Assembly (NCBI GenBank): GCA_012522505.1
Contig: JAAYKJ010000024.1
Location: 1-35,740, forward strand
DNA: 35,740 nucleotides
DNA from: Clostridiaceae bacterium
GTDB lineage: Bacteria; Bacillota; Clostridia; DSM-8532
Direction: 5' to 3'
A program made the position numbers and the translations under genes. Numbering within the stretch: position 1 is the first letter of the stretch; every line of letters begins with the position of its first letter. This document shows, one piece after another, positions 138 through 28,277 of the stretch. The notes below the pieces were generated by a model that saw nothing but the letters and a program-made list of their open reading frames with translations, made no database searches and was not told the origin of the DNA.

Positions 138-1484
138 TTAAAAGAATTCGTTGTACAGCGATATGATCGCATTGTCAAGGTCCGACTCGTCGATTCCAAA
201 CATGATGCTGACTTCGGATGAACCTTGGTTGATCATCTGGATATTTACGCCTCCTTTGGCCAGCGCAGTGGTTGCACGGCTTGCAACACCAATTGAACGC
301 AGCATGCCTTCGCCCACCACCATGACCAGAGCAAGGTTATAACCTATGGTAATGCTGTCCACCTGAAGATCATGGGCAATACGCTCCATGATTCGGGACT
401 TCTTATCCTCATCAAGTAATTTTTTCCGGACGATAACCGAGATATCATCGATGCCGGAAGGAATATGTTCGAACGGAATGGATTCCTCCTCGAGAATTCT
501 AAGAACCTTTCTCCCAAATCCAATTTCACGGTTCATCATATACTTGTGGATATTGATCGACATAAAGCCTCCTGCACCTGCAATTCCTGCAACAGGCCCG
601 TTTTTAACCTCCCGGGTTGTGACGATCATGGTTCCAGGCGCTATTGGGTTATTCGTGTTTCGAATATTCACCGGGATACCTTTTTTAAACACCGGTGACA
701 GCGTTTCTTCATGCAACACTGAAAAACCGGCATAAGCAAGCTCCCGCATTTCACGATAGGTCAATTCCGAAATCGCCTTTGGATTTTTAACAAGCTTGGG
801 GTTCGCTGCATATACCGAATCCACATCTGTAAAGTTCTCATAGACTTCGGCTTCTATGGATGCCGCGAGGATGGAACCGGTAATATCCGAACCTCCGCGC
901 GGGAAGGTAACGACTTCTCCTGTAAGAGAATATCCAAAGAAACCGGGGAAGATCATGATTTCCTCTCTGTTTTTCAATTGGGACAGATTCTTGAACGATT
1001 GTGGAAGCACTCTTGCATTTCCATATTCATCGCTTAAGAAAAGCCCCGCCTCCCTCGGGTTTATATATTTTGCGTTGTATCCTTTGCTTTTTAGGTATTT
1101 CGCAACAAGCCTGGCACTGTTGTCTTCACCGGCTGCCTTCATCCGGTCCACAAATTTCTCACTATTGTCAAAGCCCAGAGATATTCTGGTTCTTAGATTA
1201 TTTTCGATATCCCGAATAATTTCATTTCCAAGGCCAAGCCCTTCGGCAATTCGCTCATATCTGCCAACTACCGCCATCAGTTCCTTTTCGCATTCTCCTT
1301 CCCGAAGAAAGGTTTCAGCCAGGTTTATCAGCATATCCGTTACTTTTGTGTCTGAATCATTTTCTTTCCCTGGAGCAGAAACAACGACCAGCTGACGAGC
1401 TGGATCAGATGTGATGATAGCACAAACTTTCATAACCTGTTCTGCCGTAGCCAGTGATGAACCGCCGAATTTACAAACCTTCAT
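138..1484 (-). CDS. lysC: Aspartokinase (aspartate kinase)
   Basis: Phosphorylates L-aspartate with ATP, the first step of the lysine, threonine, methionine and diaminopimelate pathway; cytosolic. The 448-residue protein opens with the kinase motif KFGGSSLA (residues 5-12). It carries the substrate-binding stretch GGSDITGSILAAS followed by ENFTDVDSVYAANP near residues 198-232. The C-terminal part, from about residue 300, resembles the paired ACT domains that bind feedback amino acids. No homoserine dehydrogenase is fused to it. The ATG at 1484 follows a run of six G residues eight bases upstream. A promoter lies at 1668-1697, giving a leader of about 175 bases. I looked for the conserved parts of the lysine riboswitch there and did not find them. 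Which end product inhibits the enzyme cannot be told from the sequence. Confidence 0.93.
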   Translation of the reverse strand: MKVCKFGGSSLATAEQVMKVCAIITSDPARQLVVVSAPGKENDSDTKVTDMLINLAETFLREGECEKELMAVVGRYERIAEGLGLGNEIIRDIENNLRTRISLGFDNSEKFVDRMKAAGEDNSARLVAKYLKSKGYNAKYINPREAGLFLSDEYGNARVLPQSFKNLSQLKNREEIMIFPGFFGYSLTGEVVTFPRGGSDITGSILAASIEAEVYENFTDVDSVYAANPKLVKNPKAISELTYREMRELAYAGFSVLHEETLSPVFKKGIPVNIRNTNNPIAPGTMIVTTREVKNGPVAGIAGAGGFMSINIHKYMMNREIGFGRKVLRILEEESIPFEHIPSGIDDISVIVRKKLLDEDKKSRIMERIAHDLQVDSITIGYNLALVMVVGEGMLRSIGVASRATTALAKGGVNIQMINQGSSEVSIMFGIDESDLDNAIISLYNEFF

Positions 1485-1667
1485 GGTTAACCCCCCGATA
1501 CAGTATCCGAAATTCCTTCCGGTTGACTCCCATACTTATCTTATTCGATATCATAAGCCGTGTGCAATTTGTCCATTTAACAATTCCTTACCTGCTGCGC
1601 ATCGAACGCCTTCTTAACTCTGCTCACGCCATGAATAACGAATGTTTTCTTCTATTTCGCTTTATCA

Positions 1668-27698: not shown

Positions 27699-27727
27699 TT
27701 GCGCTATGATATGAACCATGCTACAAT
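27699..27727 (+). promoter_or_regulatory. Promoter of queT
   Basis: TTGCGC (27699-27704), 17-base spacer, TACAAT (27722-27727). The predicted start near 27734 is three bases before the riboswitch stem, the usual spacing for preQ1-I leaders. GTAGC and GCTAC flank the promoter as a short inverted repeat. Confidence 0.55.
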
Positions 27728-27736
27728 CAATTCTAT

Positions 27737-27789
27737 GGCCAGTTCGCAATATCCTGGCCGGCCTGAGAGCCAAATCAAAACTACGGAGG
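27737..27789 (+). promoter_or_regulatory. PreQ1-I-like riboswitch before queT, with an extra hairpin
   Basis: Stem P1 is GGCCAG (27737-27742) with CTGGCC (27754-27759). Its loop TTCGCAATATC closely resembles the preQ1-I loop TCGCAGTAACC of the Thermoanaerobacter aptamer. An A-rich tail ATCAAAACTACGG (27774-27786) lies against the SD GGAGG, as in translation-controlling preQ1-I switches. A paired change fits pseudoknot P2: loop G to A, tail C to U. Unusually, a small hairpin GGC-CTGAGA-GCC (27760-27771) is inserted between P1 and the tail. Ligand binding would hide the SD and turn queT down. Confidence 0.6.
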
Positions 27790-27794
27790 AAACC

Positions 27795-28277
27795 ATGAAC
27801 AAAAAGATTCTTTTCATCGTTCAGGCTGCAATTGTTGCCGCGCTGTACGCAGCACTTACCCTGATATTCCTTCCCCTCAGCTTTGGGCACAATATTTTTC
27901 AGTTTAGAATTTCGGAAGCACTAACTGTTCTCCCAGCTTTACTGCCCGCTTCCATTCCTGGCTTATTTGTTGGCTGTATTGTCTCAAATATTCTGGGAGG
28001 TTTTGGGCCTATCGATATTATATTCGGAAGCCTTGCTACCCTGCTGGCTGCACTGGTTTCACGCTACATTAGAAATTATCCGTTTCTTGTACCGTTACCA
28101 CCGGTAGTTTTTAATGGTCTGATCGTAGGGGTCTATCTAAAATACCTGTATATGCATGATATCCCACTGGCTGTCAGCATTGGATGGGTTGCTTTGGGTG
28201 AATTGTTGTCCTGCTATCTTCTGGGATATCCGCTCCTTCTGGTATTGAACAAAAGGATTGATATTACCGCAAAATAG
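27795..28277 (+). CDS. queT: QueT-type queuosine precursor transporter (ECF substrate-binding subunit)
   Basis: A 160-residue integral membrane protein with about five or six hydrophobic segments. It shows the QueT family pattern: FIVQAAIVAALYAALTL, FQFRISEALTVLPALLPASIPGLFVGCIVSNI, GPIDIIFGSLATLLAA. QueT proteins are the substrate-specific S components of ECF transporters, importing preQ1 or another queuine precursor together with a shared energising module that is not in this window. ATG 27795 has SD GGAGG; longer in-frame readings lack one and would run through the riboswitch. Regulation by the preQ1-like element upstream supports the assignment. Confidence 0.9.
   Translation: MNKKILFIVQAAIVAALYAALTLIFLPLSFGHNIFQFRISEALTVLPALLPASIPGLFVGCIVSNILGGFGPIDIIFGSLATLLAALVSRYIRNYPFLVPLPPVVFNGLIVGVYLKYLYMHDIPLAVSIGWVALGELLSCYLLGYPLLLVLNKRIDITAK

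Follow-up and report, generated by a model that had tools for sequence, protein, structure and literature searches.

A probable preQ1-I type I riboswitch with an extra hairpin at the P1-L3 turn upstream of queT in a Clostridiaceae bacterium

We analyzed a 35,740-nucleotide stretch of DNA from a Clostridiaceae bacterium, hereafter the window, and found that the leader of its queT gene very probably contains a preQ1-I riboswitch of type I, with translation of queT under its control and an additional hairpin where P1 turns into L3. The site is a structural variant of a known riboswitch class, not a new class. Its constituent elements are present in the window, the hairpin is conserved and covaries among relatives, the aptamer is linked to queT, and the gene content of the host fits preQ1 salvage.

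The aptamer upstream of queT and its relatives

The sequence-only reading had proposed preQ1-I-like elements before queT at positions 27737-27789, and every piece that it named was found there (Table 1). Type I aptamers are marked by a loop that opens with UU and closes with UC, on the 3' side of the first P1 strand and the 5' side of the second, respectively, and by a tail containing CUA; types II and III have AC where type I has UC (PMC11625349, PMC8752633). The window aptamer shows UU, UC, and CUA, and types II and III were rejected for this site on these marks. Together with the homology described below, the marks bear out the proposal of a preQ1-I aptamer before queT and place it in type I. 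The site shares with the type I riboswitch of Carnobacterium antarcticus (RF00522; PMC8752633) a P1 stem, a UUCG-type loop, UC before the P1 3' strand, an A-rich L3, a CUA tail running into the Shine-Dalgarno sequence, and linkage to queT; in contrast, only the window has a hairpin between P1 and L3. The loop contains 11 bases, compared to 12 in the crystallized type I RNA (in the numbering of the latter), and the tail reads CUACGG, compared to CUAAGG in the Rfam RF00522 consensus.

Table 1. Features of the queT leader region in the window.
Feature	Position	Strand	Remarks
-35-like hexamer TTGCGC	27699-27704	+	17 nt before TACAAT; same arrangement in L010-L019
-10-like hexamer TACAAT	27722-27727	+	predicted transcription start ~27734, ~3 nt before P1
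P1 5' strand GGCCAG	27737-27742	+	from sequence; paired in 100% of cells (27 relatives)
Hairpin loop UUCGCAAUAUC	27743-27753	+	UU at start, UC at end; nearly invariant in alignment A1
Presumed P2 5' strand C-G	27745-27746	+	within loop UUCGCAAUAUC
Presumed ligand-specificity base C27753	27753	+	preceded by U (UC, type I)
P1 3' strand CUGGCC	27754-27759	+	from sequence, fold, and alignment of relatives
Extra hairpin GGC-CUGAGA-GCC, P1-L3 turn	27760-27771	+	3 bp; compensatory changes among relatives
L3, A-rich AAAUCAAAA	27772-27780	+	9 nt after the extra hairpin; expected to lie along P1
Tail CUACG	27781-27785	+	invariant in A1; CUA is a type I mark, C-G the presumed P2 3' strand
Tail stretch CUACGGAGG	27781-27789	+	CUACG running into GGAGG
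Shine-Dalgarno GGAGG	27785-27789	+	overlaps P2; 5 nt upstream of start codon
queT, substrate component of queuosine-precursor ECF transporter	27795-28277	+	PF06177, E = 1.1e-44; ATG at 27795

The minimum-free-energy fold of the site includes both P1 and the 3-bp insert hairpin. As a single sequence, the site folded no better than its own shuffles (z = -0.55); the case that it exceeds chance comes from comparison, i.e., from the core conserved in 27 relatives, the compensatory changes in the insert, and the first rank assigned to the site by a model built from insert-free aptamers.

Within the family, queT was found in 30 of 32 genomes; among the relatives that bear names are assemblies of Thermoclostridium sp. 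and Ruminiclostridium sp. The queT leaders of the family have in common CCAGUUCGCAAAAUCCUGG, followed by a variable hairpin and then AACAAAACUACGGAG, and nearly all relatives with the aptamer have queT downstream. In an alignment of 27 distinct sequences (A1), each of them located upstream of queT, the loop and tail are nearly invariant and P1, a stem of 6 bp, is paired in each sequence, with compensatory changes at one pair. The loop and tail also contain the C-G/C-G complementarity of P2, a pairing deduced from published structures, but this is invariant in all relatives and P2 therefore has no covariation support. A decay series of the aptamer was observed before intact queT genes (L012/L040, L014/L043, and L027): P1 and the loop are gone and the tail is retained in L012, the loop is mutated in L014, and the tail is gone with P1 and the loop retained in L027.

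Geometry, distribution, and possible role of the extra hairpin

The proposal that an extra hairpin lies between P1 and the tail was upheld by comparison, with the element being absent from hairpin-free relatives and covarying in 27 relatives. In A1, 69% of the insert cells are paired even in rough register, and changes on both sides occur at five of the six pairs. The covariation score of 0.289 compares with 0.126 ± 0.018 for shuffles, a comparison that is inflated by relatedness, and with at most 0.171 for the slid control, which retains relatedness.

The position of the hairpin differs in part from that first suggested. It is inserted before the tail as proposed, but it does not lie inside the threading strand and instead starts directly under P1. 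Across 33 sequences from six families, when P1 pairs are numbered outward from the pocket, 0-2 nt separate the fourth pair from the start of the hairpin, and the A-rich L3 between hairpin and CUA measures 7-9 nt (32-33 hairpin-bearing sequences). Hairpin-free aptamers have 9-10 nt after P1 (eight measured). Given a hairpin under P1 and an L3 kept at 7-9 nt, the turn is replaced and L3 can still thread along P1. In a recent review, preQ1 riboswitches of class I are presented as pseudoknots of the simple H type (PMC11625349), and the window departs from this description by a further helix, with covariation, at the P1-L3 turn. We nevertheless count the site as a preQ1-I variant because every ligand-contacting part is kept.

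Hairpin-bearing aptamers were also detected outside the family, namely in f66 (L077), f17 (L087), f52 (L088 and L120), f41 (L119), and f18 (L121), and the loops and tails of these aptamers are unlike one another. By match length, hairpin-free members also occur in f17, f41, f52, and f66. The co-occurrence of both forms within the same families suggests that there were probably several events of hairpin gain or loss. When the phylum was scanned, all matches outside class Clostridia were 40-44 nt long and without the hairpin. As judged from these alignments and matches, the extra hairpin is real, clade-wide in the family, and recurrent in five other Clostridia families.

The hairpin-bearing aptamer L087 (G309, 1501-1556, minus strand) precedes not queT but a gene for a queuosine precursor transporter of the VUT type (PF02592; TIGR00697, E = 6.2e-51). 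The hairpin-bearing type I aptamer L119 (G254, 631-689, minus strand) precedes a radical SAM gene akin to archaeosine RaSEA (TIGR01210, E = 3.3e-11), which is a candidate queuine-salvage enzyme. In f150 (L164-L166), a second, hairpin-free aptamer is located before another small membrane-protein-like gene, in addition to the queT copy.

In the riboswitch that we propose, the extra hairpin would stack end to end under P1, lengthening the helix away from the pocket. It would make no contact with the ligand, and probably aids P1 formation or is merely tolerated. It is possible, if less probable, that the insert in this same riboswitch is a neutral spacer that contributes nothing to folding, stability, or regulation and whose pairing is marginal here. 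The 3-bp stem of the window is among the shortest observed and its segment by itself gave p ~0.09 against shuffles, whereas 32 of the 33 segments fold, with a median p of 0.003 against shuffles. Although insert sequence and length vary freely, with stems of 3-19 bp, the compensatory changes maintain pairing and no unstructured insert was seen among those inspected. That many families have hairpin-free relatives is also consistent with a neutral spacer.

We consider it doubtful that the embedded helix defines a functional subtype, i.e., that it alters co-transcriptional folding of the pseudoknot, or the affinity or cooperativity for two preQ1 molecules, arose repeatedly in Clostridia on account of this effect, and converges on the three-helix layout of preQ1-II and preQ1-III. 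The preQ1-II class (RF01054) resembles the window in its HLout topology, in which the pseudoknot encloses an additional hairpin, and in its position before queT, but differs in having an unrelated core sequence and binding mode. Likewise, preQ1-III (RF02680) is an HLout pseudoknot found before queT in gut Clostridia, but it is ~100 nt long with a Shine-Dalgarno sequence far from the pocket. Neither class was matched in the window up to E = 10, and both were rejected on this ground and on their sequence marks.

Ligand and control of queT

Under the preferred reading of a preQ1-responsive switch acting on translation, the tail would be single-stranded and GGAGG open when preQ1 is scarce, and QueT would be made. 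When plentiful, preQ1 would bind between P1 and P2, probably as a stacked pair of molecules, which is the arrangement in other type I aptamers. In this ligand-bound state, the C-G of the loop would pair with the C-G of CUACGG to close P2, and this closure would bury the first base or bases of the Shine-Dalgarno sequence and stop QueT synthesis. In the crystallized type I RNA, U7 and C31 read the second, stacked preQ1 (PMC8752633); since both have counterparts in the window, its aptamer is likely, by analogy, to bind two preQ1 molecules. The type I queT leader of Listeria monocytogenes is translational, switches OFF with preQ1, and binds two molecules (PMC12519234). It shares with the window a type I aptamer before queT and an overlapping Shine-Dalgarno sequence; compared by its published description, it measures ~41 nt and has the characteristic preQ1-I fold, with no extra hairpin mentioned. 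The Listeria leader is an experimentally established OFF switch, and that of the window a predicted one. By analogy with this leader (PMC12519234), OFF control of queT by preQ1 is the most likely direction in the window.

The host genome encodes TGT and QueA and lacks QueC and QueF, so imported preQ1 would be usable but not made, which fits preQ1 salvage. The weak matches to QueC seen in the family, which were partial and scored ~20-30 bits, were set aside because they belong to other ATPases of the same superfamily. A relative with a 99%-complete genome (G007) lacks queT, TGT, and the aptamer together.

These genes also bear on whether the same fold might have another 7-deazapurine, i.e., preQ0, queuine, or queuosine, as its natural ligand, which we regard as improbable. 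A C in the specificity position would accept the face of any 7-deazaguanine, and L119, the hairpin-bearing copy of another family, precedes the RaSEA-like radical SAM gene that may serve queuine salvage; however, a genome with QueA and TGT but without QueC and QueF could use preQ1 and could not reduce preQ0, import of queuine would leave QueA without a task, and the type I pocket marks are all retained.

A transcription start downstream of position 27737, which the sequence-only reading had held to speak against the aptamer, was not seen; a promoter-like arrangement (TTGCGC-17-TACAAT) is instead conserved at a fixed distance upstream. A generic promoter consensus scan did not list this pair upstream of P1, and we therefore relied on conservation among relatives. 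In all nine relatives outside genera g2 and g7, as well as in the window itself, exactly 8 nt separate the end of the -10-like hexamer from the aligned aptamer block. A TTG-type hexamer, a spacing of 16-17 nt, and a TANNAT-type hexamer are common to the genus of the window and to nearby genera.

Given that the Shine-Dalgarno sequence overlaps P2 and that no terminator-like site was found upstream of the queT start codon, translational control is the simplest reading. We see little prospect that the leader acts through transcription termination or another non-translational route. Expression platforms do differ within the family, as the aptamer of genera g2 and g7 has downstream of it another covarying structure, which is U-rich in g2, and a Shine-Dalgarno sequence of its own, but in the window the Shine-Dalgarno sequence overlaps P2 directly and lies only 5 nt from the start codon.

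The g2 and g7 leaders (L020-L026 and L028-L038; alignment A4) combine the same aptamer as the window with a different expression platform. Downstream of their tail, CUACGGAG, lies a second pseudoknot of the H type, which covaries and in which GAGY pairs with RCUC and CCGGY with RCCGG; 94.7% of cells are paired and the score is 0.301, compared to 0.186 in shuffles. There is a further hairpin and a separate Shine-Dalgarno sequence ~55-60 nt downstream. Between the predicted transcription start and P1, the leaders of these genera (L020-L038) also carry a short hairpin, e.g., AUGGGUUAACCCAU, and their -10-like hexamer sits ~10 nt further upstream, making room for this hairpin 5' of P1.

Class membership and implications

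We searched the window with the Rfam preQ1 models and obtained no match, either at the gathering score or at E ≤ 10, with merely chance matches to unrelated RNAs. The lack of a hit to any preQ1 model had been named beforehand as an argument against the aptamer. For Rfam this lack is literally the case, but it is explained by the inserted hairpin and the diverged core. Hairpin-free queT leaders sharing the core are likewise missed or given low scores by RF00522, and in intermediate sequences RF00522 and the model made here match identical bases. Because clear hairpin-free homologues with the same core also fail RF00522, the miss shows this model to be a weak criterion for membership and does not point to an absent structural element.

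We applied a model built from A1 (R1), which includes the window, to 33 genomes of the order; it reported a single site in each of 28 genomes and none in G007 and G021, both of which lack queT. In the sample of 391 Clostridia-class genomes, R1 marked 78 at E ≤ 0.05 (a few rejected on inspection), whereas only 10 passed the gathering score of RF00522. RF00522 under-calls type I aptamers in Clostridia. In this class sample, R1 matches beyond the family were mostly 40-44 nt, i.e., hairpin-free, and those inspected were mostly located before queT with the same core (e.g., GUCAGUUCGCAAAAUCCUGACUUUAAACAAAACUACGGAG in L078). Sixteen of the 30 RF00522-derived loci were matched by R1 at the same bases, several of these being reported directly by RF00522. 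Weak R1 matches with long inserts (L122-L127) were rejected, having neither an intact core with tail nor a downstream queT.

Since R1 contains the window by construction, we built a second model (R2) that drew solely on other families and on their hairpin-free aptamers; RF00522 also matches several of these aptamers. R2 ranked the window site best in the whole genome (22.2 bits, compared to 16.7 bits for the next), treating its extra 12 nt as an insertion, and the queT leader was its best match in most genomes of the family. Side matches of R2 on contig 127 of G030 and contig 18 of G002 were rejected, with no intact core and no queuosine gene downstream. The predicted membership of the window in preQ1-I rests on a chain from RF00522 members, through hairpin-free Clostridia queT leaders, to this family. 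Chance resemblance or a decayed, non-working copy is scarcely credible: an Rfam match is absent and decayed copies exist among relatives (L012, L014, and L027), but the core is identical to intact copies in 27 relatives and an independent model ranks the site best in its genome.

Literature searches, which had the subtype-defining work of McCown et al. (2014) outside their scope, returned no description of an inserted hairpin in preQ1-I. The P1-L3 hairpin is new in the sense that it is absent from the published descriptions examined and from the RF00522 model.

Among minimal riboswitches, the preQ1-I aptamer serves as a standard model, and the finding should appeal chiefly to specialists in riboswitches. 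The naturally occurring P1-L3 hairpin shows where the preQ1-I fold extends without loss of the pocket. This extension point is useful for attaching reporters or crystallization handles, and the natural series of stem lengths is suited to tests of the effect of a stacked helix. With Rfam missing queT leaders across many Clostridia, preQ1 regulation in these bacteria is under-counted.
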